Assembly (NCBI GenBank): GCA_016858145.1
Contig: JAEHOE010000071.1
Location: 248,001-312,000, forward strand
Direction of reading: 5' to 3'
DNA: 64,000 bases
Source of the DNA: Edaphochlamys debaryana
Lineage: Eukaryota > Chlorophyta > Chlorophyceae > Chlamydomonadales
The translations under genes were made by a program, and so were the position numbers. The notes beneath the pieces were generated by a model. The model saw only the letters and a list, made by a program, of their open reading frames with translations, was not told the DNA's origin and did not search any database. This document shows positions 12,418-64,000 of the stretch, piece by piece (position 1 is the first letter of the stretch; the number at the start of each line of letters is the position of its first letter).

Positions 12418-15400
12418 ATGAGGAAGGGAGGTTTCGGCGTCGCGTGTCGACGCGGAATCGCTCGCTTAGCGTTGACAACAGCCTTTCTATGGACCGCGAG
12501 CTTGGTACATGCTTCAGGCAAGTTGTATGCAGATAGGAGTCAGCTCGCGGCTTGCAGGCAGGGAAAGCCGTCGCCAACGCCGAGGATGTCTCGCGTCTCA
12601 GCGCAAGCCCGCTAACCCGCGACGAGCACCGACTTATAGAAGAACGCGTCGTGTTTAAGATCAGAGCAATCAGCGGCCTGGCTCGTCGCGGCACGTCGGG
12701 GGACCCCGAGTAACGACGGCACACCGCGGGCGGCCCGCCAGGGGCGCGCCAGCCGCGACCAGGCCGCGACTTTTGACTCGCGCTCGGGTCCAGCATCTTC
12801 TGCCAGCTGCACGATGGGGTCACACGATACCAAGGGACGCGTGCACAGCCGATGCCCCGAGCGACAAATGCGCTCAGCCCGCGGTTGCACGAGCCACGCT
12901 TCTGGCTCACGCATCCGGGCTGTCCCCAGCTCACGGCACTGGCGACAGAGGGCAGCTTGTGCTTCCGTTACAGGGGACCTTGGCATCTCCCCGCTACCGT
13001 CGGCGCCGACCTGGGCCCCCGCCGTGCCTATCTCACACCAGCCCTGCGAACCGCGGCTTACGCCCTCACGCCCCATCCATCCCAACCGCAGTCCACGACC
13101 ATGGCAGTCTGCTGAGCCTCAGGGCGCTGCTGCAGGCGGGCGAAGATGACTTGAGTGAGTGTGGGCCTGCATGCCGAGGGGGGGTGACCCTGAACGGACG
13201 CGGGAGATACGGTACCAAGTGACTGGCAGCTCACACGCGCGTGTGGAGGCTGATACGCCCAGTACGATGCCGTGCTTGCCGATCATACTAGAGCAGCCTC
13301 GCGCACCCTCCCACACGCCTCACGCCCTCCCTGGCCTCCTCCTCCCCAGCTGCCGTCATCTTCCGGACCAACACCCCGGGCGCCGTCAATCAATGCCTGG
13401 GGACGCACGGGGGCTACGCCACGGAGGGGGCGATGGTGGAGCAGCGGTCGTGCACGGGGGGCCTGGCGGAGTCCTTTACGATCGATCCCCTACGTGAGGG
13501 GCCAGAGCGAGGGGCCGGGGGGCTGGGGCAAGCAAGGGACGGAGGCACTGCCGAAGAGGGAGGTGGGGCCCGGCAGAGTCTGTCACGGCCAAAGCGCCTG
13601 GTATGCGAGCGAGCGCCACGACTTTTCACGGGCACAGGGGCAACGCTCTCGTTTAGCCGAGAAGCCCCCTCTGCCCTCCTCCCTTTCGCCACTGCGCCAG
13701 GAGGCGGCTCGGACGGCACCTTCCTTTCCCGAACCCCTTCTACACCCTCTCGCTTCCCTTTCCCCTTCACCTCCCCTCAACAAATGCAGGCGACGGCTCG
13801 GACGGCACCTTCCTGATGCGGGCCGAGGCCGACCGCTCGCTGTGCTGGTTCGTCAACATGGCGGACATCGCCGGGGGGGCGCCCGTGACGCTGCAGCGGT
13901 GCGACGAGGAGTCGGAGGGGCAGGTCTTCAAGGGCGACCTCAAGACCCTCCCGGGGGGCGCCAGGGGGTGAGCTGGAGCGTCGACCTGCAGGGGGGAAGG
14001 GGGGAAGGGGGGAAGGGGGGAAGGGGGGAGGGGGGGAAGGGGGGAAGGGGGGAAGGGGGGAAGGGGGGAAGGGGGGAAGCCGGGGGATTGGCGTGGCTTG
14101 GGTGCGGCGGCTGCGGCAGTGCAGACCACCTGGGTTTGTTGCCCGTGAGGGGGGCCGTGGGCACGAAGGATGCGGCAGCCGAGGCAGTGTGGGCCATCTG
14201 GGCGCGGGCAGGGGCGGAGTTGGGCCCGTGCGGCGTCCTCAACTCACTCTGTACCCTTCTCTCTCATGTCCCGTCTCGACACAGGTGGGTGTTCCACTTG
14301 CAGGCCCTGTACGCGGGCTGCATCGATGTGCTGGACTCACTCACGCAGGGCAGCGTGCCGCTGCAGGTGCGACTGCTGGTTGGGTTCAGGGGCACCTATA
14401 AGGGGCGATGGGTTCTCGAACATGTGGGTAGCTGTGGGGAGTGAAAGGGGCGGCCTAGAGGGGGCCTAGAGGAGGGAGCGGGGGCTGTGACGCTTCATGA
14501 GCCCATGCCCGCTGGGGTCGAAGGAGAGGGTCTGGGACGTGGGAGGGCACAGGAGCAGTGCACGGCGGAGCATGGGGCGTGCGGCTGAGAGCTCGGAATG
14601 ACGGTCAAGTGGGGTCAGCGCGGTCTAGTTAAAGGTACCGATCGTGGGACCGTACAGCTGTAGGCCCATCCGCGTGGGGCTCTCGGGCGCTTTCTGGATA
14701 CCAACGCGCCTCGCCCACCCTGTGTCGCTCCGCCTGCAGCTGTGGGAGTGCAGCGCCGGCCTCAACCAGGTCTTCACCCCCGTGCTGCCGGGTGAGCCCT
14801 CATGAGGGCTGGCATGAGAGCTGCATCACCGGTTTTGTTGGGGGCCCCGAGTGTTGAAAGGCGTTGGTTCAAGTAGCATACCCCGGGCCTCACCACAAGC
14901 TGATGCATCTAGAACCTGATGTGCCCTCCTGCAGAATCGATCACACCCTTGCCCTCGCCGCCGAAGCGGAGTGAGTGCGCCGGGGCTGTAATGCTGGGGC
15001 TGACGGGACTCAGGCGTTGCGCCCAAGTGCACCTATCCTGCTGCACACCCTAGTGCTGACCCCATCCCTCGCCCCATGCAGGCCCACCGCCCCCGCGCCC
15101 GCCCCTCCGGCCCCTCATCCCCACCATCCCCCCCAAGCCCAGCGCCGCCTCCCCGTCTCCCCCCAAGCCGGCCTCGCCCCCTCCCACCAAGTCCCCGCCC
15201 CCTCCTCGGGTCCCCCGGTCCCCACGCATTCCAGCCAACCCGCGACCGCCGCCTCGCAACGCCCTCCACCCGCCGCCCCCCGACAGTCCGGTGCCCCTCA
15301 CCGAGTCACCACCGCCGCCTCGCTCGCCCCTCACTCCCCGAACGCCTCGGATCCCAACGATCCCCGGCACCCCCCCGGCCGAGCACCCCTCGCCGCCCCC

Positions 15401-18400
15401 GCCCAAGGCGCCTCGGAGCCCCAGAGTCCCTGCGACGCCCAAGCCCTCGCCATCCCCCATGCCGTCACCATCCCCGTCGCCCGCGCCTCAGCACGGTGGG
15501 TTGGGTCGCTTGCACGGTGGCTCGCTTCGGGAGGGGGCCTCAAGGCAGGTGACACCTGCAAGGGCGTTTGCAGCTTCCTGCACGCTAACCTTGCACACAC
15601 CGACCCCCGTCGCTGCCCGCTCGGCCCTGCCACCTGCCTTGATTCATCACTAAGCTGTGACCCCAATGCACGCACCCGGCGAACTGCCCCGTGCCCGCCT
15701 CCAACCCCCCCCCGCCTGCAGAGACCAGCGGTCGAGTGGTGGTGCGCACCTCTGCTGCGGGGCAGTGCGTGGCGGTGGCCGGCGGAGCCGCCAGCGAGGG
15801 GGCGCTGCTGCAGCAGCGGCCGTGCGACCCCGAGAGCGAGGCGCAGGCCTGGCTGCGGGAGCCGGCGGGTGAGCGGGGCGGCGTGCGGGCGGGCTTTACA
15901 TAGCGGGGTGTATTTACAGTGTATTAGGCCCACGGGCGCGTCTGACCCCGGCCCCCGCCACTTCATGCCTGAAGATCAGGGGCGCGACCGCGCTGGACCC
16001 CGCCATGTGACCCTTCATGTGACGCTGTAGTACTGCCCGCCATGACTCATCAGTCATCGCCCCTCCCCCCCCCCAGATGACGGCCACGTGGTCCTCCTCT
16101 CGGCCCTGGACCCCGCCATGTGCTGGGCGGTGCGGGGGGGCTGGGCGGACGACGCCTCGCCGCTCAACCTGGCGCCGTGCGACGCCGAGGACGACAGCCA
16201 GCTGTACAGGACCGCGGAGAACCCGCTGGGGTGAGTCATGCGTACGGCACGTACGGCGAAGCTGGTCCAGTCCCGGGATTACGGCACGCTGCTGGAGGCT
16301 GCTGGTGCCTCAGCACGCCCGGGAATGCCCGGCGTATGCTAGAGTGGGGCACTCAGGGACAAAGCTGTTTTTGCTTTTGTCGAAACCCTTCCTTTCCGAT
16401 CCCTCCAGGGTGTTCCTGCAGCCCAAGCACGCGCCGGGTATGTGCGTGGGCGTGGGCGCCAACGGGCGGCTGTCCATCTCGGCGTGCGAGGGCAGCCCCA
16501 CACAGGTCTTCAACATCGAGCCCGCAGGTGAGGGCCTGAATTGCTGTCTGTGCCAAGGCTCGAACACGCTTGCAAAGGCTTCCTTCTTCAGCTGCTTTAT
16601 ACCCCCTGGAGGCTGTCGTCGTACCTGAAGCCCGAGGGCACTGTAACGTGATGCCATTCGTTTGGCATCCACAATGCAGAGCCCGCGACCGTCGACTCGC
16701 CGCCTCCGGTTCGCACCCGGCCGCCGCCCCGCGCCCGGCCCCCGCCCAAGACCCCCCAAGTCCCATCGCCGCCGCCCCCCATCAAGGACAGCCCGCCGCC
16801 CCACTCACCCGACAACTCCCCGCCTCCGCCCACCGCCCCTTCCCCCTCGTCACCCTCGCCTCCCAAGTCCCGAACCAAGCCGCCCAAGACGCCAAAGGCC
16901 CCCCGGGAGCCGAAGAACCCCAGCAAGCGCCACCCGCCATCCCCCGCCCAGCCGCTCTCAGTGCCGCCTCCCGAGGTGCCGCTCGCCTCGCCCCCTCCCA
17001 AGCCAGCCTTGAACAAGCCGCCGAGGCCATCGACGGTCATCCCGGTCCCTCCAGGCACCTCGCCTGCCCTGGGTAGGCCCCTCGCACTAATCTGGGAGCC
17101 TCGGCATAGCTACGGCTGGAACTTCAGAGTTGCGCACCTCAGGCCATATCCGGCAGGTCCCGAGCAGCCTCTGCGGCTTCAAGCCCTCCCCTGGCGCCGT
17201 CCGCCGCTCCTCTCCTCACCACTCCACCTTCCCCCCTATTCCCCTCCCTTCTCCCTCCCTCCGCCCCCCCTGCAGCCACCCAGGTGGTGCTCCGCACCTA
17301 CTACCCCCGCATGTGCGTCACCCTGGCTGACGTGGACATGCAGCGGGGCCTGGCGCAGGAGGTTTGCGTGGGCTCGGCGGCGCAGGTCTTCAGCACGCAC
17401 GCAAACGGTGAGCACCTATCTATCATGTTTGTCTGCGGCCTTGGTATTTGAAAAGTCGGTAGAACTTAGCACCCTGGCGGGACAAGACAGGAGCAGCGGG
17501 AATGGACCCGTAGCCCCTCACGTCCATGGTCCACCTCCCTCGGCTCATGCCCCTGCATGCCGCATACCCCGATTCCAAACTCGTCGATCCACCCGCAGGC
17601 GACGGCTACACGCGCTTCCAGCCGCGCGCCAACGCCTCCCTGTGCGTCACCGCGCTGCCCAACGCCCGCAACGCCACGTGGGCCCTGGACCTGGTCGACT
17701 GCGCCCGGGGCGCCACCGCCAACCAGTTCAGGCTGCAGCCGCTGCGCGACGGGTGAGGCGCGCGCAGTGCGTGCTGTACGGCATGCATGTACGACATATG
17801 TGCGCCGTGCCGTACATACTGCATGGCATGCACGGGCCTCGGCAGCACGCGGGGGAATTGAGGGCCGGGAAGGGGTGGCATGGCTCGGGCCCAACACCTG
17901 ACGGTCACAGACCTCCTCCCGAGCCCCAGCCCCGCGCCCCCTTGCGTCCTCGCCCCTCGGGAGCGGGGGCAAGCCCGCTTGCCCGCATCTAACCGCCCGA
18001 CTCCCTCTCCCTTCCTCTTCCCCCCTGTCCCTGCCAGGTGGTCCCTGTCCCTGCGCCTGCAGCCCAGCAAGTGCGTGGCGGTGCGCCTGGGCGAGGAGGC
18101 GGACGGCGCGGGGCTGACGCTGGAGGAGTGCGAGGAGGGCAGCGTGCAGCAGGCGTTCGGTATTGTGCCGGCGGGTGTGTGCGGGGCAGGGCTGGGGAGG
18201 GCTGGGAGGGCTGGGGAGGGCTGGGGAGGGCTGGGGAGGGCTGGGGAGGGCTGGGGAGGGCTGGGGAGGGCTGGGGAGGGCTGGGAGGGCTTGGAGGGCT
18301 GGGGAGGGCTGGGGAGGCTGGGGAGGGCTGGGGAGGGCTGGGGAGGGCTGGGGAGGGCTGGGGAGGGCTGGGGAGGGCTGGGGAGGGCTGGGGAGGGCTG

Positions 18401-21400
18401 GGGAGGGCTGGGGAGGGCTGGGGAGGGCTGGGGAGGGCTGGGGAGGGCTGGGGAGGGCTGGGGAGGGCTGGGGAGGGCTGGGGAGGCTGGGGAGGGCTGG
18501 GAGGGCTGGGGAGGGCTGGGGGAGGGCTGGGGAGGGCTGGGGAGGGCTGGGGAGGGCTGGGGAGGGCTGGGGAGGGCTGGGGAGGGCTGGGGAGGGCTGG
18601 GAGGGCTGGGGAGGGCTGGGGAGGGCTGGGAGGGCTGGGGAGGGCTGGGGAGGGCTGGGGAGGGCTGGGGAGGGCTGGGGAGGGCTGGGGAGGGCTGGGG
18701 AGGGCTGGGGAGGGCTGGGGAGGGCTGGGGAGGGCTGGGGAGGGCTGGGGAGGGCTGGGGAGGGCTGGGGAGGGCTGGGGAGGGCCGGGGAGGGCTCGGA
18801 AGGCGTGCTGGTTATATCGTCTCACGACGGATCCCGCTCATTCAACCTGGGTGACCTTCAATCCGGAATCCACAGGCCTGCCCGCGGATCTGGTGCCCGA
18901 GTGCGCCTACTTCGATGCCCTCCTGGGCATTGACATCGACTGGGGCGTGGGTGAGTTGTAGTCAACACAGGGCTCGGTAGGAGCCTGGGTCCGGAGAGAA
19001 ATCCAGCGAAAAAGGGCCCCCTCTCCCTTTGGCATTGGGCGTGCTGCTTGATAAGCTATAGTTGGTAGCTCCAGTTGGTAGCATAATGATCTGCGCCGCT
19101 CCCACTGCCGCAGGCGAGGCACCTCCACCCGGCGAACCGGATGAGATCAAGGCCGATGACAGCGAGAACCGGGACAGCGTCGAGCTCCTGCGCCCGCCGC
19201 CGCCCCAGGGGGAGGTCATCCCGGACCAACCGCCGTACGACGTGCCCCCGCCCGCCGACGGGCCCTTCAGCTACCAGCTCAAGCCCCTGGGCTGGGCCGA
19301 CGCTGGAAACCCCCGCCAGGTACGACGGAATGGCTGCGTGTTTCAGGGCACTACTAATGCCATGTCATCTCAGATCTAGCCCGTATCCAGCCCTGGTTCC
19401 AGGTCCGGATCTGCGGCAGCAAAGAGACTTGCGGCGTGCCGAACGAGTTGGCTGGATGAAACGGGCGAATCATCTTTCCCTCCACGTCCGCAGGCGCTGC
19501 ATTTCACCGATGGCTGCCTGTACGACACCACGATCGGCGGAGGGTACGGCAGCATCCGCATGGACGGCGTGAGCTGCATGGCCGTACTGTCCGATGACGA
19601 CGCCGTACTGTCCGGCTGGAACGCGTCAGCGGAGGCGGCCTTTACGGTGGCCGTGATCTACAAGCTGGACTACGGCGCCAGGGACTACACCCTTGTGGAG
19701 ATCAGGTAGGAACTGACGGAGACGGTTTGGGGGCTTGGGGTGATAGCGCGGCCGCGGCAAGGGCGACAAGACAGGGCTAGAGGAAGCTAGAGGGGCCGTG
19801 AGAATCATGTGGCCGCGGCGATCGTGAGGGGCGAGCCGCCCGAGAGGACGCCGAGCACGAGATGAGGGATATTTTCTGCCCCGACCCGACCCGCCCCGCC
19901 ATCTGCAATGCTGTGCTCGCCAGCCGCGGCATCGCCGACGACGCCAAGGACGAGTTCTCGTTCGGCAGCGGTCCCGAGGCCACCTACCTGGAGACCAACG
20001 GCGTGTTCGCCTTCAAGGCCGACGGCCCCAGCCAGCCAAGCGGGCGCTGGGTGATGGACGCCTTCGTGCGGGAGGAGGGCGGCGAGAGCGGCGCCCTCTT
20101 CAGGTGAGGGAGCACGGCCGGGGACTTTGGAAGGAGGGCGCAGCGGGGTCGGACGGTTGGGGGGCAGCAGGGTTCATAGAGGGTAAAGGTCCAACAAGGC
20201 TTGGGCACGCCGGGGCAGCCTGGAGTGCTTCGCAGTGCCGCCCTGTGCCCAGCGTCTTTCTGATTTGCTGCGACTGTGCACGAGGCATCTATCCACCTCA
20301 ACACCCTCTTACCTGCCTTGTGCCGCTGCGCGCCCGCTCCGATCAACCCTCAGCAGCGCCAGGGCGGGTGGCGTGCGGCCGATGCGGCAGTTCGAGGGCC
20401 AGGCCCGAGTGCCCATCGGAGCGAACAACTTCACGCTGGGAGCGGACTACAAGAACATGTGAGACGGGGAACCGGGGGCGCGGACTAAAAGCATTTGAGG
20501 AAGGTGGTGTACTTGAAGTGGTTAATGGAAGTTGGGCGGGTGGGGAAGCCCGGCCCCTGCCCGGCCCTGCTGTTCTCGGGTGCAGAGGGTCGTGTCTCAA
20601 GGAGAGACAAGGAAGGCGCACGCCAACCCTCAAACCTTTCGGCAGGCTCGGGGGCCCGTAGGCACTGCAAGGGCCCCTGTCACCCCTGTCCAGAGGACAC
20701 GTCTGGGCACTGGTGCCATGCCCGTGCCACCCCATTCCTCTCGCCCTGCATCCTTGCTTAACTAAACCCTAAACTCTAAAACCGCTTGCTTGACCGACCC
20801 CTGCCAGGTCCCACTTCCTCAAGGGCCACGTGGCCGTGGTGCTGGTCTACAGCCGCGCCCTCACCGCCGCCCAGCTGGAGCAAGTCTACGTCACCTACGC
20901 CCCCCGCTTCAACTGGCCGCTGCCTTCAGGTGAGAGATCAGGCAGCGACCACGCTGTACCTTGCGGCAATGGCGGCCGGACAGCGTGCCGTACCGATGAC
21001 TGAATGGGCAAGGCGCAGGGCGGGATGCACGGCCTTAATCCTCCCTTCCCTCTGCCGCGGTTGCAATGCCGTTCACAGAGCCGGCACCGGAGCCACCCGC
21101 AATTGCGACCCCTACCGTCCAGCCGCCTCCTCCCAAGGATGACCCGAGCCCAAGCCCAAGCCCAAGCCCAAGCCCGAGCCCCAGCGCGGGGCCTGCGCCG
21201 CTCTGCGAGGGCAAAAGCCTGGTCCGCGGCCCCTTTGGGAACAAGACGGGCGGGGCCTCGTTCAGCGACTCGAGCGCTACCAAGAATGGAGCTCTGCCAA
21301 TCACGCGTATCGCCTGGAGCGCTGCCTATCAGCTGACAGGCCTGCAGGTGCGTTGCGTACCTCAGCTGCTAGGTCAGGACTTTGCTCAGGAGGGTTGGCC

Positions 21401-22107
21401 CTGCTAGGATCAACGTGTGGGGATAGCCGCGCGCATACAAAGCCGGCGCATTGCTTGATCGCGGGTTGACTCTGCCCCCTGGGCCTCCCTGGCCCTCCTA
21501 CTCTCTTCCACCCTTCCCTTTCCCCCAAGCTTGCGTACGGCGTCTACGCCACGGTCCGCCGCGGCAGCGATGAGGGCTTCGTCGCCAGCGATGTGGACCT
21601 GGAGCCGGGGGAGTTCATCACGGCCATTCGTGAGTGCCCTGAGCAGGAGCATGGGGCTATCAAACGGGGATGCGTGCCGCGCCAGGGGGGCTCATCTCAC
21701 CCTTAGTGCCCGAAGTTCTCAGCTGAGAAGCCACCCTTTCGCCTTTCGTTCATCGCTTCTGCCCCTTACCGGTATGCGAGTTATGCCACTTCTGCCCATG
21801 CGTTTCCGCCACAGGGGTTGCGCTGGGCGTGCGCGACGGCATCGAGACGGTGGATGGCCTTCGCCTCGACACAAACAAGGCGAGGCCCATCATCATCGGA
21901 TCGCTAACGGGCACCCCGACCGATCCCAAGGATCCCACCGTGCTGTGCGGCGAGGCATGCTCCTGGAGCGATAAGACCGTGGTCAACATTACGCCCTGCT
22001 CGTCCCAGCCAGGATCCATGGTCGTGCTTCGGCACGTGGGTGGACGAGCATCCTCAGATGCGATTGACCAGCTGTCTTTCACGTGGACCGAGATCCCCGT
22101 GCAGTAG
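12418..22107 (+). CDS. Gene B: secreted lectin with three beta-trefoils, LamG-like and jacalin-like domains
   Basis: About 1,290 residues in 24 exons. Exon 12418-12517 is a signal peptide; exon 13092-13154 is short. Trefoil 1 spans 13350-13493, 13790-13977, 14285-14366 and 14740-14791. Hinge 1 is 14935-14970 plus 15082-15495, rich in SPPPP and PSPSP. Trefoil 2 is 15722-15868, 16077-16230 and 16409-16527; hinge 2 is 16680-17072; trefoil 3 is 17276-17407, 17599-17752 and 18038-18174. Trefoil lobes show the ricin-B pattern C-V-x-V, Leu/Ala-x-x-C and QVF-x-x-x-PAG. Exon 18876-18950 has the family linker [18 protein letters not shown]. The LamG-like part is 19114-19319, 19494-19705, 19924-20103, about 20354-20458 and 20808-20929 ([20 protein letters not shown]). 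Exon 21079-21347 is a short SP hinge leading into the jacalin-like part, finished by 21530-21629 and 21815-22107. Predicted wall or matrix lectin; the ligand is unknown. Confidence 0.82.
13697..13728 (+). repeat. Partial duplicate of the start of a gene B exon inside the preceding intron
   Basis: The sequence from CAGGAGGCGGCTCGG onward repeats the acceptor and first bases of the exon beginning at 13790 (about 21 identical bases ending ACCTTCCT), roughly 90 bp upstream and in the same orientation. It supplies a second potential acceptor. Confidence 0.6.
13991..14081 (+). repeat. GGGGGAAG minisatellite in a gene B intron
   Basis: About ten tandem copies of an 8-9 bp G-rich unit with one GGGGGAGG variant, in the intron 13978-14284. 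G-quadruplex formation is possible. Confidence 0.85.
18177..18800 (+). repeat. 10-bp minisatellite (GGGGAGGGCT)n in a gene B intron
   Basis: Roughly 60 near-perfect copies of GGGGAGGGCT fill the intron between exons ending 18174 and beginning 18876. The unit has no stop in several frames on either strand, which creates long artificial open frames. A few 9-bp and 11-bp units interrupt the array. Confidence 0.95.
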
Positions 22108-29000: not shown

Positions 29001-29478
29001 CGAACACTCCGTCCCCCTAACGGTACCAACCAAATGGCATGCTCTTCGTGCAGATTGCGACGGCCTGGCGGACGAGAATGATCCGGACTGCGCTGACGAG
29101 TTTGAGAAGGGCGAGTACTCGGACCCGCCGCCCGGGACCAAGCGGCCCCCGCCCCGGCCGCCGCTGCCGCGCCCCCCGCGCCCCGCGCCGCTCTCACCAC
29201 CGCCCGGGAGGAAGTCGCCGCCGCCGCGCAGCCCCTCGCCCCGGCCGCCGTCGCCCGCGCCCCCAAAGCCACCATCCCCCGGGAAGAAGTCGCCGCCGCC
29301 ACGCAGCCCCCCGCCGCGACCGCCGTCGCCCGCGCCGCCCAAGCCTTCTCCGCCACCACCGCCGACTGTGCGGCGGCCACCGCCGCCGAGCCCCAGCCCG
29401 ACCTCGCCGAGCCCGATTCCGGAGCCTGTCAAGAAGAAGAAGCGGCCCCCTCCTGCCAGTGAACGCCGGCAGGGGTGA
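23080..29478 (+). CDS. Gene H: gametolysin-like matrix metalloprotease (peptidase family M11)
   Basis: About 960 residues in 21 exons. Exon 23080-23149 is a signal peptide ([18 protein letters not shown]). Exon 23338-23440 and the start of 23528-24243 form a Cys-rich segment; the rest of the latter is a long PSPSP hinge. The protease region uses exons 24441-24514, 24686-24739, 24936-24993, 25226-25329, 25520-25609, 25751-25811, 26110-26199, 26367-26485, 26638-26805, 27036-27054 and 27200-27330. The spliced zinc site reads [11 protein letters not shown], matching QExxHxxGxxH of gametolysin, and YGDNADPMG gives the Met-turn. Later exons are 27567-27624, 27738-27865, 28006-28089, 28242-28439, 28654-28730 and 28891-28943. 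The last, 29054-29478, completes a MopE-type putative metal-binding motif ([15 protein letters not shown]) and then encodes a Pro-rich, basic tail. Family members cleave hydroxyproline-rich cell-wall glycoproteins; the substrate here is inferred. Confidence 0.85.
26888..26926 (+). repeat. Duplicate of a gene H exon end plus donor within the next intron
   Basis: The last about 30 bases of exon 26638-26805 and its GTGGGC donor recur here (GGACCTGCCGGTCATGTTCC) with a few substitutions. The intervening intron holds a GGTTGGTTGG run at 26817-26857. Confidence 0.65.
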
Positions 29479-43745: not shown

Positions 43746-43909
43746 GAATCCTCACTTGGCCCGCTTGAAATCCATACCCGACCCCCTTGGAATCCCGATG
43801 TGGCCATGTCGAAATCCAAACATGGCCGCGGCCGAATCCATCTGTGTCCCCCTCCGAATCCAAACGTCTTCCCCGACGAATCCCCGTGACACGAGGGTCC
43901 GCCGAATCC
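43746..43909 (+). repeat. 22-nt-period array with GAATCC/GAAATCC core, copy 2
   Basis: Cores occur at 43746, 43767, 43790, 43811, 43834, 43856, 43878 and 43904, spaced 21-26 nt. The sequence between cores has diverged much more than in copy 1. Confidence 0.75.
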
Positions 43910-50600: not shown

Positions 50601-53600
50601 GCGTCATGCTGCGGTCCACCATGGCTGCGACCGTGCTGCAGAGTCGCTGCAGCTCGGGCGGGGGGGGGAAAGCGAATTCCAGGTGGTACAGGACCTTGGA
50701 GATTGCGTAGCCAGAGGCCGTCGACGCTCTCCCAAAGGCTGAAAGATTCAGGGACACCAGCTTGGTTAGAGCCGAGTAGACTCCATCCAGGGCGATGGCC
50801 GGCTTGCACAGGGCGGCGGTGTTGGCGACTGTTACCCCCAGGGTCTTGGCCTTCACGACGGTTCGCAGTGAGGTATCAGGGGGTGGCGGTGCGGGCGGCG
50901 GGCCGGGCGGCGGCTCAGGCGGCGGCGCGGGCGGCAGGCCAGGCGGCGGCGCGGGCGGCAGGCCAGGCGGCGGCGCGGGGGGCGGGCCAGGCGGCGGCGC
51001 GGGCGGCAGGCCAGGCGGCGGCGCGGGCGGCAGGCCAGGCGGCGGCGCGGGCAGCAGGCCAGGCGGCGGCGCGGGCGGCAGGCCAGGCGGCGGCGCGGGC
51101 GGCAGGCCAGGCGGCGGCGCGGGCGGCAGGCCAGGCGGCAGCGTGGGCGGTGGATCTGGTGGTGGGTCCAGCGCCGGTGCGGGCGGCGGGCCGTGCGGCG
51201 GCGCGGGCGGTGGGCCGGGCAGCGGCGCGGGCAGCGGCGCAGGCGGTGGGATCAGGCCGACGGGGAGCAGCTCCGACTTGCTGGCGTTCAGGCGTTGTCC
51301 ACTTGCTTGCGCAAAGGTCTCCATGGCTGCAGCGAAAGCGGCGGCTGTGTTGGGTCGCAAGATTTGCGTGTAGTCGTCTGCGTATTGGGAAGCTCGGAGG
51401 ACAAGCTGGCGGCCGTTGGGTGAGAGAGCAATCTGGAATCCCTGTTTAGCAAGCCACGATAGTAGCGCTTGAGCGGCCGCCAGGTAGAGCAGCGGCGCTA
51501 ATGGGCAGCCTTGCCGTACCCCTGCTGTTATCTCCAGGTGACCTGATACGTCGCCGTTGACTAGGGCCGCGGATCTTGTGCCCTGGTGCAGAAGCCGCAC
51601 CCACGCCAGGAAGCCATTGCCAACCCCCAGCGCTTCCAGGCACTCAAACAGGAAGCCCCGGTCCAGCGTGTCGTACGCCTTGTGGAAATCTAGGAAGGCC
51701 ATGAGCCCCTCCTCACCTGCCACTCTTAGCAGCTCTGGTGTCAGCTGCATGAGCATGATGTTATCAGCAATCCGTCGACCTGACAGAAAGGCGGTCTGCT
51801 CGGGGCTGATAATGGCGGCGAAGGCTGGTTGCAGGCGGGCTGCCAGGACGCGGGCCAAAGTTCGGTAGTCCGTGTCCAGCAGCGTGATGGGCCTATAGTT
51901 GGCGGGCTGGGTTGGGTCGCCTGACTTGAAGAAGCACGAAATCACACCGTCAAGAAAGCCACGAGGCGCTGTACCAGCCGCCATTGCCGCTGAGAACACG
52001 GCTGCTAGGATGCTCGAGAACTGCCCGCTATATGCCTTGTACAGCTCCATGGGGATGCCGTCCGCGCCGGGGGCTTTGCCTTGCGGGGCGGCGGAGATGG
52101 CCGCTGCCACCTCCGTCGCAGTCACCGTCGGCTCCCCCATCTTGGTGACTGACTCCTCAGGGCAGTTGAGCGCTGCCTCCCGAAGCGCCTGGAGCACCTG
52201 TGCACGGGCGGTATGGTCAACTGGGCTGGGTGTGCTGACTCGCTGCCAGAAGCGGGCTACGCTGTGTGCCATCTCGCGGGGGGTGGAGGTGAGGGTCCCG
52301 TCAGCTCGACGGAGTGCGCAGATTCGGCGGCAGGCGGCTGGTGGTCGCAGAAGGTGGGAGAGGAGGGGTGAAGGTCGTTCGCCTGCATGGATCCAGGTGT
52401 GGCGAGTCTTCCGAGCTGCCCGTGCTGAGGCCCGGCATGCCGCCCTGGCCGCTGCGCTCCTTGCCGCAACCGCCTGCGCAGCTGCGGCTTCGTCGCCTGC
52501 CTCCACTGCCGCCATGGCGGCTTCGGCTGACTGTGCGGCTGTCTGTTCTGCTGCTGTAGCGCTGACGGAGCGCTGCTGTGCTATCTGGTTGAGCGCCCGC
52601 AGTTCCCTATTAATGCCTGCCTTCACCGCTGGCCACCAGGAGAGCACCTGTCGGCTGTCCGTTGGCATCGAGGCACGCTGGGAGTCAATCCATTCGCAGA
52701 AGCTCTCGCGCAAGTCGGTGAAGTCAAGGAAATGCATCCTGACCCTCGGCAACCCTTTGCCCGGGGGCTGGGCGGCGGGGGATGGTGAGAGGCGTAGCAG
52801 CACAAGTCGGTGGTCAGCGGGTCTGCCGCACTCAATGCGGCACGATGCCACGTTCGCCGCCAGGTCGGAGGAGACGTGAAAGCGGTCCAGGCGGGAGGCT
52901 CCAGACGGATAGAAGAAGGTGAAGCTGCGGACGGTTGGGTGGAGGCTGCGGAAAGCGTCCGTAAGCCCTGGGCAGGCGGCGCTGAAGACCCCCGCCGTCA
53001 AGGAGGTGTCAGGGCGGCGATCGCGTGTGTGGGCCGTGTGTTTCCACGGCCACAAGGCCTCACAGCAGGAGCTGCGGTGGCAGATGCGGCAAGGTTAACC
53101 CGCTGCCGTCTTACAAGCTGCGATGACGGCCGGCGTTAGCGGCGTTGGCCGGGCGCCCCCCGCGTTGGAGGGGGCCATCCATGGCCATGGAGCGGGTCCC
53201 GAGACGCCCGGCACCCACAACCTCCCCGCAGAAGTGCAGTACCAGCAAGCATGTATGAATCTAAAAAGATAGCAGGTAAACGCTACTCTTCTGCGCGTCT
53301 CCGCATGCCGAAACGACAAATGACGAATGGCTGCACGCCCCGACAACTCGATTTATGCCATTGTCACACTCATACATTCCCATTACTTGTAGCGATAGCG
53401 AGGTTGCGCTGTGCCAAAACGCCACCCGGGGTTGCTCTGTACCGAGCGAGCTCAGACGGCGACCCGCACCAGAACGCGGCAAATGCTCACTCACCAAAAG
53501 GTGTAAGAGCTGAGGCAGCGCAGAGGCCCACGAGAGCGAGCCACGCGACGACCGTCATGGTGCCCGCCGATGCTCGGCGCGCCAAGCCTCTTTGCCGCAT
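44672..53600 (-). CDS. Gene E: trefoil-LamG-jacalin lectin, frameshifted and split by a LINE in intron 1
   Basis: Same plan as gene D. The signal-peptide exon lies far upstream at 53495-53600 (MRQRGLARRASAGTMTVVAW, phase 1, GTGAGT donor). The next exon, 48645-48725, is Pro-rich and phase-compatible, so intron 1 is about 4.8 kb and holds the retrotransposon. Trefoil exons are 48415-48476 (family Pro motif), 48123-48272, 47693-47842 and 47383-47531. Exon 46344-47149 has the linker [19 protein letters not shown], polyproline and LamG start; 45872-46107 and 45576-45697 follow. Exon 45344-45418 is the GEWTTTPPPA spacer. Jacalin exons are 45108-45262 and 44672-45025. In 47693-47842 one G is missing near 47807 compared with genes C and D, which breaks the frame before LCWALLD. 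Either a pseudogene in the making or a sequence error. Confidence 0.75.
49000..53055 (-). CDS. LINE ORF: endonuclease remnant, reverse transcriptase and zinc-knuckle
   Basis: One frame is open for about 1,350 codons; the first codon shown is TTG and the frame stays open to about 53091, so the true start is missing. Residues about 55-92 match the end of an APE-type endonuclease (RLDRFHVSSD, ADHRLVLLRL). The reverse transcriptase spans about 325-600, with GADGIPMELYK, NYRPITLLDTDYR, FLDFHKAYDTLDR, GVRQGCPLAPLLY and the catalytic YADD at 51371-51385. A Pro-rich repeat insertion follows, then a thumb-like region. A C-x-C-x(9)-HHFWKC element near residues 1190-1209 resembles the RT-associated zinc-binding domain. 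This is the order of L1-like non-LTR elements. No stop interrupts the frame, which suggests a young copy. Confidence 0.9.
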   Translation of the reverse strand: MWPWKHTAHTRDRRPDTSLTAGVFSAACPGLTDAFRSLHPTVRSFTFFYPSGASRLDRFHVSSDLAANVASCRIECGRPADHRLVLLRLSPSPAAQPPGKGLPRVRMHFLDFTDLRESFCEWIDSQRASMPTDSRQVLSWWPAVKAGINRELRALNQIAQQRSVSATAAEQTAAQSAEAAMAAVEAGDEAAAAQAVAARSAAARAACRASARAARKTRHTWIHAGERPSPLLSHLLRPPAACRRICALRRADGTLTSTPREMAHSVARFWQRVSTPSPVDHTARAQVLQALREAALNCPEESVTKMGEPTVTATEVAAAISAAPQGKAPGADGIPMELYKAYSGQFSSILAAVFSAAMAAGTAPRGFLDGVISCFFKSGDPTQPANYRPITLLDTDYRTLARVLAARLQPAFAAIISPEQTAFLSGRRIADNIMLMQLTPELLRVAGEEGLMAFLDFHKAYDTLDRGFLFECLEALGVGNGFLAWVRLLHQGTRSAALVNGDVSGHLEITAGVRQGCPLAPLLYLAAAQALLSWLAKQGFQIALSPNGRQLVLRASQYADDYTQILRPNTAAAFAAAMETFAQASGQRLNASKSELLPVGLIPPPAPLPAPLPGPPPAPPHGPPPAPALDPPPDPPPTLPPGLPPAPPPGLPPAPPPGLPPAPPPGLLPAPPPGLPPAPPPGLPPAPPPGPPPAPPPGLPPAPPPGLPPAPPPEPPPGPPPAPPPPDTSLRTVVKAKTLGVTVANTAALCKPAIALDGVYSALTKLVSLNLSAFGRASTASGYAISKVLYHLEFAFPPPPELQRLCSTVAAMVDRSMTPAAHASNPHARLPGIGYKAMCVPPEDGGLGLLPVVEHVRARQAVLATRCVLGSCPNLLRFRPVWPTVAMELLRRTHPAVHPLCLFTAQRAGPNAATKVLGTTANSPCPTLNMITGALLHLPRVELIKSPAVGPWVHSAPVWGNPALRPAAAGRGGLESMYADLMGINELRTVGQLVRAYRAGAGARAGLSGAQGGRLPPMARSECSRKVKENIVVGLWGRGGYESLPAALRNGPALLGRIDSLMGHIPVPWVQAATEVEENPDLACPEEEAWKELLGCIGWRAGQTLVPVARLSVSLATALQMEPAFEYVKGKHLNFVAEALSGGVGDESDLLDLQATLRRLWALRWENVWKEAFWRLALNGFTGFSAHEGTATCPCEIAMHGGDRLHHFWKCYLAEGLVDEMCACLGGEQGMPWTWPLRRFNLWLARPTEGVDQRVWDVVCLAATTAMEKGRRYLYATRENGNRLGVLNRGRVLVSAEFWGALHSFAALRPPSGWETIPADHPFLRVSGGRLTVQEPPAGGPAGVLALIDDD
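50870..51262 (-). repeat. 24-nt repeat coding Pro/Ala/Gly in the LINE ORF
   Basis: Tandem 24-nt units (core GGCGGCGCGGGCGGCAGGCC) encode LPPAPPPG-type octapeptides and keep frame throughout. They lie between the palm (YADD) and the thumb-like part of the reverse transcriptase. Confidence 0.85.
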
Positions 53601-54581: not shown

Positions 54582-57500
54582 CTAAGACGCACGCTCCTCG
54601 CCCCACACAAGACTCAAGCTGTCGACCGATGTATTTGATGCCGTACCCGTAATGTACCTGAGCACAACGGTCGTGTTGTGATCGGTAGGGCAGGGTGTAA
54701 CCTCAACCCATGTGTCGAAGCGCCAGGAGCAATCCAGGCCACACAGCGTTGGAGGGTCTGTGGCAAGGGGCGTGTTGGGCTGCGCCCCCACGAGGATGAC
54801 GCTCATCTTGCTGGTCTCGAGCCAGATCCCGTCAATCGTGTCGTACCCGTCATGGGACCCGACCGCAACACGTGCGTGTACGACACGATCCCCCGCCTCA
54901 AGGATATTGACGCCCGATGCGAATCCGGCGTCACCGCCGCGCAGGGGAGCGGCAAAGATGCCGTACGACATCTGTAAGCGAGAGGGCAAGGGGGAGGGTG
55001 AATTGGAGGGAGAGTCGGGGTCTGACATGTCCGTAGCCCCTCCTCCCCTAGCTGCGCGACCCTCATAGTCTAGAGTTAGGCCAACCCCCGTCTACCATGC
55101 TGGGCCTTTGACCCGAAGTCCGCCTGCCAAACTCATCTACCCCTCACGTGAATCCCCGCCAGGGAGCACCCAGCCGACCTGCCTCGACCATGCCGCCACA
55201 CCGCACCTCTTCCCTTTCTTATACCCATCGTTTGCCCCCGCTCTCTCCCCACCCAGAGCCTCACCTGTATCCCCGCCAGGGAGTACCCAGCCGACCAGGC
55301 GATGCGGCTGATGGGCAGACGGCCCCCGCCACTGGCGGCGGAGTCGTTGAAGGGAGCGCCGCCGGGGCGGGTGCCGAACGGGCCGCGAACCAGGCCCGTG
55401 CCATTGCACCACGGTTCTGCAAGGGTGTGTGTGCGGGGGGGGGGGGCGCAAACCTCAATACATGCGGCGTACAGGTAACCAAACGGGGGGCATGCCAGTT
55501 GAGAGGGCGGGGACAGCCACTGAGGGGGTAGAACTTGCGCCTCGCCCCTCTCACTAGAGGGGCTGGGCGGAAGCCCCGGCGGGGGACTCGGTGGGAGGTA
55601 AGGAGGCCGCGTGGGAGGGGCAGTGGGCGCGATGGGGATGGGGGCTGGCTCCGGTGAGTCCGGCTCGGGAGCTGGGGGCGGCGGGGGCGGAGACGGGATA
55701 TGTGGCACGGCGGACGGGGAGCTTGGGACGGCGAGAGGCGGCGGGGGTGGAACGTCTTCCTCCTCCTCCTCGTTCGGGGGCGGGTAGTCCAGCACAGCAC
55801 CTGGCCGGAGGGGAAGCGGGAGCGGGAGCGGGATGAGCAGTGCACCTCAACTTTGCCCGGTCAGCTCCTTGCTTCAGACCCAAGCAACGGCCCACGGTTA
55901 GGGCGCCAGCCCTCGCTATCTGTGCCCCATGTGTTCCCCAGGTCCCCGCCCAGCACCCTCGGCTTTACCCTTCCTGGACCCGAACACGGTCAGCCTGCCC
56001 ACGCTGCTCACGCACAGCAGCTCTCCAGCCACCCACCCGACATGGGGCTCCAGTCAAAACGGTGCGCATAGGTCCGGTAGATGCGGTTGAGCTGCTGGAT
56101 GTTGAGGGAGCGGTTGTAGACCAGAGCCACGGCGATGCTGCCCTTGAAGTAGTCATCCCTGCACGAACGTTGGGTGCAGGCGCGCAGCAGCAGTTGAGTT
56201 CGGGAGCCGGCAGAGAGCGGTGGGCTGTTTGGCCCATGCCAAAGCCCTCTGGCTGGTGCTTGGTTTCTGAGCTCCCGGCAACGGACCGCCCCAGCTCACC
56301 ACTCCCGGTAGTCTGCGCCAATGGCCAAGTCGTCAGCGCCCACTGAGACCGGCTCCCGGTCTGACCACGTGAGCGTACGGCGCACCGCGCCGTACTCGGA
56401 CATGTACACCGATCCGCGCCTGCCGCCCACCTGTCGTACATACGCCACGAGCGTCCACCGACCCGGGAGCGGCAGGCTGTCGAAGAACCACCCAGCGCTG
56501 TTAACGCTTCGAAAGGAGCTTTCGCCGAACGAAGGTGAAGGAGTCGGCATCGCTGGCACGGTCGTACGGCGTACGGCTGAGTGAGGCGAGCACGTACGAC
56601 GCCGACCCGTCCTCGTCGTACACGAGCTTGATGATCATGACGATTGCGAAGCCGGCGGTTGGCGCCGTGCTCCATCCGGTTAGGTTGCCCTCCAGGTAGC
56701 CGAAGCATTCGTGGCCGTCCAGGCTCAGGCTGCCGTACCCGCCCTCCGTACTCGTGTCGAACGTGCATCCGTCAGTTGTCAAAAGGACCTGCCTAGGGTT
56801 TGCACTGTCAGCCCAGCCTAGGACATAACGTGACGTGTCGTCGAGCCCTCCAGGTAATGGCGGAGCTGGTGGAGAGTCTGGACCGTCGAGCAGGTCCGGA
56901 GGTGACCAGTCCGGGGGGTCGCCGTAGGTGGGTGGCTCCTCCCAGGCATCTCCGTAGGTAGGGGGCCAGGCGGGATCGTCAGGCGGGAAGAAGCCATCCG
57001 GTGGCTCCAGGTCGTTCGGTCCAGGGGGGTCGGAGGGAGCCCAGGGAGGCACGTCCTGAGGCGGCTGGTCCCCTGCGGGCGTGGGGCGTCACACAGGTGG
57101 GGTTCAACACCCAAGCACGATGCAAAGGCTACGGCAGGGACCACCTCAGAGCCAGAGCCGGGAGGGATTACAATTACTATGCTGGGTTGAGCGCTAAACC
57201 CTGGCGGCTGTATCTTAAAAATTGCTAAAGGCAAGCCGCGCGGCCCACCTTCATCCGGACGGAGGAGGACGATGCCGCTGAGGGCGTCGAAGTAGGCGCA
57301 CTCGGGGATCAGATCCGCGGGCAGGCCTGCGAGGTCCGGACAGGGGTGATGACTTGGATAAGAATGGGGCCCGTGGAGCCCAAGCATATCGCGGGCCACT
57401 GCACGTCCAGGTGGGATGGACGGGGTCCAAGCTAACAGAGTAGAGGAGGGTTTCGAAGCTTTAAGCACCCGGCGCCTACTACCCAGGCCCAGGGTCAGGC

Positions 57501-60500
57501 CCACGTCTAGGTGGGATGGCACCGTCCGTAGTCCCTTGGCCGCACCTGCGGGTATGACATCGAAGATGCTGGATGCCGCTTCTTGCACCGTCCGTTGCAA
57601 GAGCGATCCAGACCACACCACCAGCGGTGCGCCCTCCTCCGGGATGGCCTCGCCGCCGCTCCCCGGGCTGTGCAGCTGCACGCCCAGGCACAGCTCCCGG
57701 TCCCCGCTGCTGCCGCCCACGAGCGCAGGCTTGAAGGTCCACCTGAAGGGACGGAGTGGCCGCGTGGAGGAGAATGGGTCATGTGTGCACAGCGGTACAT
57801 GTACAGAGCGAAGGGGTATCGAGGCCAATGATGAGGGCACGCCGACTACCCAAGGGTCAAGGGCATCAGGTCAGAAGGTTCAACGCCATCCACATCAGCA
57901 CCCCAGCGATCCGCTTCCTCTGCGGGAGCTAGCGCTCACCCTCGCCGCCGCCGGCCCTACCCGGACACGAAGTTCGAATCGTACGAAAAGGACACCCGGT
58001 CCGCGATAAACCCCGGCTCCCGGCCGCCGTCTGCGCACGGCGCCAGTACGAGCGGCGTCAGCTGGACAGCGCCCACGGTTGGAGAGCCCGCGCCTCCCAG
58101 GGGCGCCCAGCAAAGCGAGGGGTCCGAGGCGCTCTTGAGGCGGAATGCGCCGTCGTCTGGGCGGAGGGGGGAGATAGGAAAGAAAGGAAACGTCACGAGG
58201 ACGGTAATGGTCATCCGAGCCCTGCGGATAAGGGGCTCTACAGTACTAAAGGCGACGCCGTAGGGCTGCGCTGCCCCCATGGAATGTACGTGCACTGCTG
58301 ATCAGGGGCTGGAACCCCTAGAACGTGCCCAGCCGCTTCAGCCTTACGACACGTCCACGCCATTGACTTGTACCCTGCCAGCCGGGCTCACAAGGGCCTG
58401 GGGCAGCAGCCGCTAGACGCAAGGCACCCACCCGAAAGCTCGGGCAGGAAGAGCTGCGCCGCCGACCCGTCGCACGTGCGCTGCTGCAGCGGCGCCCCGC
58501 TGCCGCCCCGCTCGCCCGCGGCAACGCACATGCCCGGGACCCACGTGCGGAACACGACCCGGGCACCTGCACGGGGGCACATGGTGCACACGGTCAGAGG
58601 ATGGCCATCGAGCTTCGGAGCGGTAGGGCCGAGTACAGGTGCAGCACTTGCGTGCCGGGCCATGATACGGCCCTGTACGCGTACCGTCGCTTGCCGTACG
58701 GTACGGCAGGTGACTCACGTAAGGGGGGCCCGTAGTTCGTGGGCGGGGCGCTGGGGGGCCACTGCAGGTCGGGAGGGCGGCGCGGCTGGCGGGGAGGGCC
58801 TGCAAGCGAGGAAGATGTGAGCCAGGCACTGCTGGTTTGCAATTCGGTCACCGGCTGTGCACGCACGCCGGTGCGCGCCTCCATGTTGCCCGTCAAGGGC
58901 CCGCCAACAGGCCCACCCAAGCGGTACTAATGCCCCACATGTGCCCGTGCGGAAGGCTTACTCGGCTCTCGTGGTAGAGCGGGCGGGGCAGGGGGCAGCC
59001 CCGGTGGCATGGGCGGGGTGCCGGGCCAGCGGGGGCCGAAGGGCACCCAGGGGACCCAGGGCGAGTAGGGTGGCGAGTAAAAGGTATCTGCGGCAATGGC
59101 CAGGGGAGCTCTTGTGGGTCGGGATGCGGGTCAATCGGCCTGCCCTGTTCCATAGCGGTTGAGCTATGCATGCCCAGCACGAGCGCGACCGCCGAAGTAA
59201 ACACTCACTTGCGCAAAGTACTTCGGGTGCCCCCTCTTCAATGAAGAGGAAAGACACAGTGCCGGAGGGAGCCAGACGTAGCACGTCCGCCCATTCCCTG
59301 GAAACGGCAGGGCAGAGGGGTGGGAAAGATGTAACGCCGATTGGGTACGGCTTGATGGGCAGGGCCCCAGCCAGTTGCTGGGGGGTAAGGGGATCCACCA
59401 AGGGGGCCGTGCAGAGCAGCTCTCAATGCCTGGGTATGGGTAATAAGTAATGGGAACTTACGAATAGGAACTCCGCACTCAGGCTCCATGCATCCGTCCC
59501 TAGTGCTGCAGCATGAGCTGGCTGCTGCCCCCCGGCTTTCTGTCGTCCGAACCAGCACTCACTGGTCCATGCAGCTGAGGTTCCTCTGCTGGAGCACAAA
59601 GGCCTGGAGGAGGGGGGTGCGACAAGACGAGACCCAGTTTCTTCGGCTGCATGGACTGCCTCGCAGGTTCCCAAGGACTTGGTACTCCATAGCACCCACC
59701 ATTGCCCTTGCCCACAAGGTTGCCCTTTACCGCGTACCTGGCCGGGCTCCAGGGTCACAGAATAGTCGAGTTCGATGTAGATCTGGGGCCTGCGGTAAGC
59801 GCTATCGTCGCATCTCAGGATAAGCGAGCCGCTGCCACTGGTCTTCGTGCCGTTCGTGAAGCCGAAAACCAGGCGGTACTCGACATGCATGCTGCCCATG
59901 CCGGTCATCCAGGGACAGTCACTGTACATGCCAACGCAGACCCCGTTGCCGTGCATCCCGGGCGTGTGACCGGCCCAGCCGCATTGCGCCTTGTAGCCAC
60001 GGACCGGCGGCTCGAGTCCGCTGTCCTCGGTCGCGCGCCTGGCAGCAATCCTGGCAGGAGACTCTGCAGGCATCGAAGGGGGCAGGCAGGCATCGAAGGG
60101 GGCAGGCAGGTCGGCGGGGGGAAGAGGGTTCCGGGATGCTCAAAGGTGTGCCCTGCACCGTGCAGTCGAGCGCCCTGGCTCGTGCCCCGTGGTCGCCCGT
60201 GGCTGCCCGTGGCGTGGGGGTGGGCGGCGGGGATGCACGCGGGTTCGGGGCGGGCCCGCGTGTCGACAGACTAACAGCTGTCGAGTTCCTCGTAGGGCCT
60301 CTCACGCCACCTACCTTGACATGACTTGGTGGTGTTCACCCATCGCAGCGACGAGTCCGCGCAGGAGCATGCGTAGGAATCGCCGTGTTGACTGCAGACT
60401 CCCTCTCCGCAGAGTCCAGGCGGGCATTCTCCTCCAGGTCCACCTGCATAATGATGTTCCTTTTGCTTTTGCTTGCACGCGACGGTTGCTCGCTAAGCGG

Positions 60501-61548: not shown

Positions 61549-64000
61549 CTAGCTAGTGTGCACAACCTCTGGCACCTCCTCCCAGTAGAAGGTCAGGCTG
61601 TCTACCGACGAATCCGTTGCTGTGCCTGAGATGTCCGTGAGCGCAACTGAGGTGTTTGGCTTGGAAGGGCAGGGGGTGATGTTGATCCATGTATCGAAGC
61701 GCCCGGAGCAATCGAGGCCACACTTCGTTGGCGGATTTGTGGGTAGGAGCGCATTTGGCGTCGCCCCCGCAACGAGGATGCTCATCTTGCTGGTTTGAAA
61801 CCAGATCGAGTCAATCGTGTCGTACCCTTCATGGGATCCGATCGCGACACGTACCCAGACGATGCGATCCCCCTTCTCAAAGTCCTTGGCGCCAGACGCG
61901 AAGCCCGTGTTGCCGCCGCGCAGGGGCGCAGCGAAGATGCCGTACGACAACTGCAAGTGGCGGACGGGACAGCGCGTCAGATGGCCGAGGCTGTTGGGAC
62001 AATGCATGGGGCTCAAACGCTGGGGATCAGGCCCTGCACAGGTCGACCCTCCATCCCTTAACCATGCCGCACCGGAGCTCCGTCCCACTGACCCCCTCCC
62101 TCGCCCCCTCTCTCCCAGGCCAGCCCCTCACCTGTAACCCCGCCAGGGAGTATCCCGCCGACCAGGCGATGCGGCTGATGGGCAGACGGCCCCCGCCACT
62201 GGCGGCGGAGTCGTTGAACGGAGCGCCGCCGGGGCGGGTGCCGAACGGCCCGCGAACCAGGCCCGTGCCATTGCACGGCCCTGTCGAGCAAAGGGCAGGA
62301 GCGTACACACAGTGCAGCGTCAATCAAGCCTTCCTCACTTCGGCATTGCAAACCTAGTCACGATGTACGGCTTGCATTAGAAGGGAAAGCGGCAGGCGGG
62401 TGCTTACAGACGAATGGCGGCTGGGGAGGGTACGGGGCTCGGGGCGGGTAGGTGGGGGGCGGTTGGGCAGGCTGGCCCGGGGGCGGGAGAGCTGGGAGCA
62501 CGGGCGGCGGTGGCGCATCCGGGGTGGACGGCGCGTCATCTTCCGGCGGTGGCGCGGCAGCATCTGCATGTGGGGGGGCGCAGTGTGGGACAGTGGGCGA
62601 GGATGGAAACAACCACTCGATTCCCGTTCCACTGCAACAGGCTTCAGCAGGCCAAGGGGCCAGGGGTGTGGCAATGCAGCATAGGTCCCAAGGGGGCCAG
62701 TCTCTTGCATCCATGGCCGGGTTGTATCGTGAGAGCGAACAAGAGCAATTCCTTCGCGCAGACGTCTTAGCCCCCGGCTTCTGGGTCGCACCAGTCCTTC
62801 CTAGATGCCCCCCCCCCGCGAACAATCATGGGCCGCATCTTTGCAGGTGTGTCAGTAACTATCCTCACCTGGCCCTTCCTCCCAGTAGCCGAACCGCGGT
62901 GCGTAGCTGTCGTACAGCATCCCCAGATCCTCCTGGTCCAGGACGCGGCTGTAGATGAGGACCACTGCGAGGCGGCCCTTGAGGTACTTGTCCCTGGGGG
63001 GGTTGGAGTTGGCGGTTGGGGGTTGGCGGTTGAGGGGTGTAAGTTGGGGGTGGGGGTTGCAGGTTGGGGGTAGAGGTTGGGGGTGGAGGTTGGGGGTGAA
63101 GGTTGGGGGTGGAGGTTGGGGGTGGAGGTTGGGGGTGGAGGTTCGGGGTGTCCCCGCGGGGCTTTGGGTTTGGGGCCGGCGGGACGGGGCCTCTGGACAT
63201 GGGCTACACCCAGTACAGTGCTGCGCGCGTATAGATCTACCGGTAGTGCATGACTCACTCGTCTCGCCAGTCCGCACCGAGGATCAGGCTGTCAGAGCCA
63301 ACGGGGATGGGCGTCTGGCCGGTCCACTCCTGCATGGGGCATGCTTAGGGGTTACCCCAGACCAAGTCACGGATCAACTTCGGTCTCGCAGGCGCAGCCT
63401 CGTCCTAGACCGAGTATGTACTTCCCCAATTCGCTGCCCCAAGGACAAGCAGCAGTGCCGCCCTCCCCCGTTCTCACCTCGACGAGGTCCAGGCCCATCT
63501 GCCCGAATCTGCTGCCGTACAGCGCTCCCTCCGTACCGCCCTCCTGCCGTACGTACGCGTCCATGACCCAGCAGCCGGCCGGGTGCTGCGGGCCCGTGTT
63601 GTTCAGCGCCAGGACGCCACGGTGGTGCAGGAAGGTCTCCCCGCGGCCCAGCAGCAGCTCATCGTCATAGTCCCAGGGCGAACGGCTGTGGGAGTGTGGA
63701 TGTTGGGATACGAAGGGTGAAGGGGCAGTAATACTAAGGTCAGGGAGAAGCTGGGGAAGGGGTCCACTGGGAGAGGACGTTAAGGCGGGAAGTTGCCCCG
63801 TGCTTGCCACGCACGCACCTGAGGTGGACCAGAGCGTAGTCACCCGCACCGGGGTCGAGTTTATAGATCACGACAACCGTGAACGCCGACTCCGCCGACG
63901 TGTTCCACTTGGCCAGAGACGGCGCGCTCGCGAAGCATCGCATCCCGTCCATCAGGATGCTGCCGTACCCGCCGTCGGCAGATGTGTCGTACAGGCAGCC
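61549..64000 (-). CDS. Gene G: LamG-jacalin part of a further lectin paralog, 5' end outside window
   Basis: The readable part begins inside the LamG-like domain. Exons: 63819-64000 (GYGSILMDGMRC, FTVVVIYKLDPGAGDYALVH), 63478-63685, 63259-63329 (PIPVGSDSLILGADWRDE), 62879-62993 (LAVVLIYSRVLDQEDLGMLY), Pro-rich 62408-62573, and jacalin exons 62132-62280 (GLVRGPFGTRPGGAPFNDS) and 61549-61950. The intron before the SPWDYDDELL segment matches gene B rather than C, D or E, and the jacalin exon is almost identical to that of gene F. The trefoil and signal peptide would lie beyond 64000. No frame break was seen in this part. Confidence 0.8.
63000..63155 (+). repeat. GGTTGGGGGTGGAG minisatellite in a gene G intron
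   Basis: About ten imperfect 13-14 bp units fill most of the intron 62994-63258. The array is G-rich on the plus strand. Confidence 0.85.

Follow-up and report, generated by a model that had tools for sequence, protein, structure and literature searches.

The 64,000-nucleotide stretch analyzed here (the window) is C71:248001-312000 of Edaphochlamys debaryana, and its positions 12418 to 64000 hold six genes, B on the forward strand and C to G on the reverse strand. In spliced models and exon-level matches, the window genes follow the order beta-trefoil, laminin G (LamG)-like jelly roll, and jacalin-like domain. Exon-level matches give this module order in five of the genes and LamG-jacalin in the sixth, G, which the window cuts; trefoil and LamG were found in B, C, D, E, and F, and jacalin exons in B, D, E, F, and G. 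A sequence-only reading of the window had proposed six tandem genes of this order, and both kinds of evidence bear it out. It had also placed the N-terminal part of G outside the window, where trefoil-like exons indeed lie upstream, and had noted that C lacks jacalin, which is confirmed by a C terminus (...GDWSTTPPPMEDAWM) that ends in a clean stop at 30623, before any jacalin.

Five further copies (H, I, J, K, and M) lie past the window, giving 11 copies in ~108 kb. The members first recognized between 12418 and 64000 stand, and the array extends beyond that interval. Its modules reach ~368 kb of C71 in searches of the genome (141.9 Mb, 502 contigs) with LamG, jacalin, and the N-terminal part of F. 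The jacalin search, with D as the query, returned 14 matches, 13 on C71 and 1 on C141, which is a lower bound because the jacalin exons of B, G, and M were missed. LamG is a genome-wide family, with 53 of 81 exon-level matches on contigs other than C71. Away from the array, a jacalin-like exon at L046 (C141) 1501-1848 scores 30.2 bits with Pfam Jacalin, and no trefoil or LamG accompanies it in 3.3 kb.

The spliced models were built with a purpose-written protein-to-genome aligner, using gene D as the first template and allowing only GT-AG and GC-AG introns; some small exons are doubtful, chiefly in B (between the trefoils and LamG), F, and M. The models of B to G agree in the place and phase of their junctions, and those of H, I, J, K, and M have the same plan as the window genes. 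Deposited E. debaryana proteins include HYH03_011905, HYH03_011906, and HYH03_011909. The deposited prediction of I holds all three folds, those of F and H miss part of one fold, and those of E and J lack one end; the protein searches made yielded no deposited protein for B, C, D, G, K, or M. Separate neighboring trefoil, LamG, and jacalin genes might appear fused merely by closeness, and such an artifact would fit the truncated entries of E and J and the reliance of the fusion on homology-guided models and deposited predictions. We consider it very improbable, since the order and junction phases repeat copy after copy, the sole stop between modules is the end of C, and deposited I, F, and H fuse modules.

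Comparison with LamG genes elsewhere in the genome redraws one part of the plan. The sequence-only reading had listed a conserved linker and a polyproline stretch ahead of LamG. Among 19 stand-alone loci taken from the 53 LamG matches outside C71, an LPxDLxPECA(H/Y)FDA-type motif continues through one open frame to W-x-D-V/M at 13 (12 places, as L015 and L019 share one); the remaining six have no match to the linker pattern. This W-x-D-V/M answers to TGWADA of the array copies. We therefore reject the linker as a separate part: it is the start of the LamG domain. The stand-alone genes thus share the domain and its PECA(Y/H)FDA-type start with the array, but at the 13 loci the start and next strand are in one frame without a Pro-rich insert, whereas in the five array copies measured they are parted by 34 (J) to 190 (D) residues, 44% Pro in the 190 of D and 10% in the 77 of K. 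Because the linker is the LamG start, the Pro-rich stretch, although present as proposed, appears to lie inside LamG and not before it, as a loop between the first strands of the jelly roll; this position is read from sequence, the first LamG strand being modeled without confidence. Eight of the 19 stand-alone loci, checked over 3.5 kb each, gave no jacalin, trefoil, EGF, or N-terminal-domain match.

The N-terminal domain in question is a common module of ~100 to 135 residues that precedes the trefoil in F, H, I, J, K, and M and had been overlooked; two examples were scanned, with no Pfam match. C, D, and E carry a short Pro-rich exon in its place. Relatives of this domain also occur outside the array, at L053 (C5) 1366-1770 on the forward strand and L061 (C163) 1573-1902 on the reverse strand, with no LamG, trefoil, or jacalin match in the 3.3 kb fetched around them. 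An EGF-like exon, with weak Pfam EGF-type scores, is present in F as had been claimed, and its presence in I, J, and K rules it out as a peculiarity of F; none was seen in 1.6 kb upstream of H, and M was outside this comparison. Signal-peptide-like starts were recognized by eye in eight copies. Within the window these are B (with its Met at 12418), C, D, and E, as predicted earlier; no signal exon was located in F, and the start of G was not sought.

Profile searches recognize the folds in some copies, and alignment extends the assignment to others. Jacalin (PF01419, cut-off 22) scores 31.6 bits in I and 27.5 in B, and 30.2 and 22.5 in deposited I and H, respectively; the jacalin call in D, E, F, and G depends on alignment with B, H, and I. 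Trefoil matches exceed the cut-off with PF00652 (29) in B (33.9 and 32.2 bits) and M (30.5), and with PF14200 (25.6) in B (39.3), H (39.0), and M (30.4); the trefoils of D, F, and I fall below both. Of the three trefoils claimed for B, the second and third exceed the PF00652 cut-off, the first being partial and weak. Laminin_G_3 (PF13385, cut-off 27.6) stays below its cut-off in F (26.5), B (25.0), and G (18.0) and exceeds it in the stand-alone relative L018 (29). As to the trefoil-like exons of G outside the window, the two G pieces scanned gave no Pfam match. By its own scores, B alone supports the three-fold claim by profile, with Jacalin and trefoil over their cut-offs and Laminin_G_3 slightly under its own. 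A predicted structure recovers the jelly-roll fold of LamG. All fold-search matches listed were LamG, and the lack of jacalin or trefoil among them decides nothing; many were receptor-binding parts of clostridial toxins at low identity, which would reflect the common jelly-roll fold and say nothing about function. A PDB sequence search with the jacalin of D alone gave 0 hits at E<=10.

Several observations weigh against reading every copy as an intact, sugar-binding, three-fold protein. Scanned by themselves, D, E, F, and G do not match Pfam Jacalin, nor do D and E match Laminin_G_3. The sugar-binding loop of jacalin is GxxxD, found exactly in G only among nine aligned copies (J was not in the alignment); E has GxxxE, B and D have the Asp one residue later, and the loop is absent in I, F, H, K, and M. 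The trefoil signature is QxW, which in the first lobe occurs only in the second trefoil of B among scored copies; it is absent in M, and QxF replaces it in C, D, E, F, H, I, J, K, and the third trefoil of B. The predicted structures (mean predicted local distance difference test scores of 48 and 58) are weak outside LamG, with neither the N-terminal domain nor the first half of jacalin modeled confidently. The low Pro content of the K insert and the shortness of the J insert indicate that the Pro-rich rod is not universal. There are also frameshift steps in the models of F (LamG), G (jacalin start), J (Pro-rich part), and C (end), which we take for unmodeled introns; a 1-base frameshift in the second trefoil exon of E near 47802, either a real lesion or an assembly error; and an in-frame stop in the N-terminal domain of J. 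That all three folds bind carbohydrate is an assumption: with the jacalin loop exact in one of nine copies and QxW mostly QxF, we infer glycan binding rather than read it from these motifs.

The divergence of the copies was assessed for eight (D, E, G, H, I, J, K, and M), two domains each in 28 pairs; B and F were excluded for a frameshift step in their codon models, and C, which lacks jacalin, was not included. Nonsynonymous divergence (dN) is lower than synonymous divergence (dS) in all 56 comparisons, at the level of domains rather than sites and with many dS values saturated (>1), leaving positive selection unsupported at the domain level. For the I-J jacalins dN and dS are nearly equal (0.032 versus 0.034), while LamG in the same pair has a dS of 0.65, and the two genes share 444 bp at 98.9% identity in jacalin that run into an intron. 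Similarly, F and G match in both jacalin exons, over 174 bp at 93.7% in the first and 365 bp at 76% in the second, with no blastn match of >=60 bp in LamG. The pattern is reversed in D-E, where dS is 0.43 for LamG and 1.26 for jacalin. These contrasts argue strongly that jacalin and LamG have different histories within the array and that jacalin has been exchanged independently of LamG; the best explanation would be that the jacalin end was passed between copies by gene conversion or unequal exchange. C without jacalin, the frameshift and probable retroelement of E (see below), and the stop in J further indicate an array undergoing birth, exchange, and decay. For the diversification suggested earlier, positive selection is thus unsupported, although jacalin ends appear to pass between copies.

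Such exchange would also be expected of a soluble recognition or defense repertoire, in which secreted lectins bind bacteria, viruses, or competitors with copy-specific glycan specificities while conversion shuffles the jacalin tip. The tandem array has so far been found in one species, and the most expanded orthogroup in the E. debaryana genome, as reported in PMC8226300, consists of genes with SRCR and C-type lectin domains; both are consistent with this explanation. We nevertheless regard it as unlikely, given that dN<dS throughout and that conversion makes the jacalins more alike. Less likely again is an algal recognition repertoire of secreted EGF-N-terminal domain-trefoil-LamG-jacalin proteins that combine lectin specificities, with the terminal jacalin swapped by gene conversion as the rest diverges.

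The coordinates of the array genes are given in Table 1. The open reading frame listed between the exons of E contains a 12-base tandem repeat (~50810-51289). Provided that the signal exon at 53558-53496 belongs to E, this frame lies within intron 1 of that gene and is probably part of a retroelement.

Table 1. Features of the array within the window (window coordinates)
Feature	Position	Strand	Basis or remark
Gene B	12418-22107	+	Spliced model, Pfam, signal start by eye
B trefoil 1 (partial)	~13349-13847	+	
B trefoil 2	15733-16529	+	
B trefoil 3	17281-18174	+	
B LamG start ("linker")	18876-18931	+	
B LamG exons	19494-20955	+	
B jacalin exons	21123-21347, 21530-21629, 21815-22107	+	Stop at 22107
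Gene C	30623-34360	-	Spliced model; no jacalin
C signal peptide exon	34360-34297	-	
C Pro-rich exon	33869-33783	-	
C trefoil exons	33583-32597	-	
C LamG start, Pro-rich insert, LamG	32402-31588, 31439-31204, 30965-30844	-	
C last exon	30669-30623	-	With stop
Gene D	36589-41831	-	Spliced model
D signal peptide exon	41831-41765	-	
D Pro-rich exon	41062-40997	-	
D trefoil exons	40773-39719	-	
D LamG	39558-38651, 38275-38040, 37789-37668	-	
D spacer	37499-37425	-	
D jacalin	37317-37157, 36957-36589	-	
Gene E	44672-53558	-	Spliced model; HYH03_011905 covers Pro-rich insert onward
E likely signal peptide exon	53558-53496	-	Joined by similarity to that of D (tblastx E 8e-4)
E Pro-rich exon	ending 48415	-	
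E trefoil exons	48272-47383	-	
E LamG	47149-46344, 46107-45872, 45697-45576	-	
E spacer	45418-45344	-	
E jacalin	45262-45108, 45025-44672	-	
1364-residue open reading frame	49000-53094	-	Reverse-transcriptase match, RVT_1 28.9 bits (cut-off 29.6)
Gene F	54582-60435	-	Spliced model; HYH03_011906, jacalin cut short
F EGF-like exon	60435-60313	-	
F N-terminal domain	59983-59209	-	
F Pro-rich exon	58799-58719	-	
F trefoil exons	58566-57546	-	
F LamG start	57326-57178	-	
F Pro-rich and LamG	57064-56300, 56158-56037	-	
F Pro-rich spacer	from ~55800	-	
F jacalin	55416-55265, 54971-54582	-	
Gene G, C-terminal part	61549-64000	-	Rest outside window
G LamG exons	64000-62869	-	
G spacer	62563-62502	-	
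G jacalin	62280-62132, 61950-61549	-	

Two other regions of the window have gene-like features. Positions 2300-12000 on the reverse strand hold pieces of a possible receptor-like kinase, with a Pkinase score of 37.4 bits (cut-off 31.7) when joined by hand and of 14.3 and none for the unspliced exon frames. A hydrophobic stretch lies near 5950, and repeated secreted-looking exons occur at 7.6 to 11.9 kb, two pieces of which have no Pfam match; that all these pieces form one gene is possible. Between B and C, a forward-strand gene-like stretch (23100-29480) has a long (Ser-Pro)n region at ~23.5 to 24.3 kb and a Pro-rich end, with no Pfam match in the one piece scanned.

The explanation we moderately favor is that the tandem array of at least 11 genes encodes secreted-looking modular lectin-fold proteins with Pro-rich rods that would act at the wall. 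Each protein would begin with a signal peptide, after which F, H, I, J, K, and M have the N-terminal domain and C, D, and E a short Pro-rich exon. A ricin-type beta-trefoil (several in B) would come next, then a LamG/ConA-like jelly roll interrupted behind its first strand by a Pro-rich insert and, except in C, a terminal jacalin-like beta-prism. The signal-peptide-like starts together with the rods suggest export into or onto the cell wall, where the rods may carry hydroxyproline-type glycosylation as in pherophorins. Several lectin folds per chain suggest that the separated globular modules would bind different glycans, so that one molecule could bridge wall glycoproteins, secreted polysaccharide, or microbial surfaces, while duplication, gene conversion, and loss would keep the gene set turning over. 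Large Pro-rich proteins that look adhesive and secreted might instead serve in mating or cell adhesion, much as volvocine agglutinins do; nothing tested ties the array to mating, and we find this quite improbable. Module order, exon structure, profile matches in some copies, alignment of others, and the exchange of jacalin ends come from the DNA itself, and the LamG fold from prediction; on these grounds, lineage-specific secreted chimeric lectins acting at the wall are probably the best reading.

Three protein searches, one with the LamG-jacalin part of D and two with profiles (LamG-jacalin from nine copies and full length from six), found E. debaryana alone, with ~8000 candidates of limited length scored in each. 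Both profile searches missed deposited copy E, although its length was within range and it belonged to the query or lay close to it; such searches thus overlook true relatives, and the lack of matches outside this species is weak evidence of absence. Copy I found no relatives among prokaryote genome contigs and viral contigs in a search that sees close relatives only, and gene D DNA found none among plasmids, which is uninformative. UniRef labels two array copies jacalin-type lectin-domain proteins. The combination of trefoil, split LamG, and jacalin was not met in literature titles, the opening parts of abstracts, and the available text of PMC6362431, PMC12355970, and PMC11766507. Within the scope of these searches and sources, the earlier statement that no three-fold family has been described is consistent with what we found. 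The array would add an architecture of trefoil, LamG split by a Pro-rich insert, and jacalin, often with a Pfam-unmatched domain. It provides a concrete case for the role of lineage-specific lectin arrays in wall building, adhesion, or microbe recognition in a unicellular relative of Volvox, and the separate jacalin and LamG histories in one array open domain-level gene conversion to direct testing.

Known systems share parts of this design. Pherophorins, a large volvocine family, are built of globular parts held apart by a Pro-rich rod whose length varies strongly (PMC9818292), a dumbbell that the array proteins would resemble, but in the array the rod splits a LamG domain; no pherophorin domain was among the Pfam matches of the pieces scanned, which covered some domains of some copies. 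Vibrio cholerae cytolysin has a lectin tail of a trefoil followed by a jacalin-like beta-prism in one chain (PMC12355970), a likeness of arrangement only: this is the tail of a pore-forming bacterial protein and has no LamG or Pro-rich rod. Chlamydomonas reinhardtii likewise has volvocine proteins with differing lectin domains per chain (hevein plus jacalin, LysM plus fucolectin type, and LysM plus two C-type); these are other pairs, and the accessible text of PMC6362431 does not name trefoil plus LamG plus jacalin. Pairs of lectin folds are already known, and we class trefoil plus split LamG plus jacalin as a variant among chimeric lectins with a Pro-rich rod.

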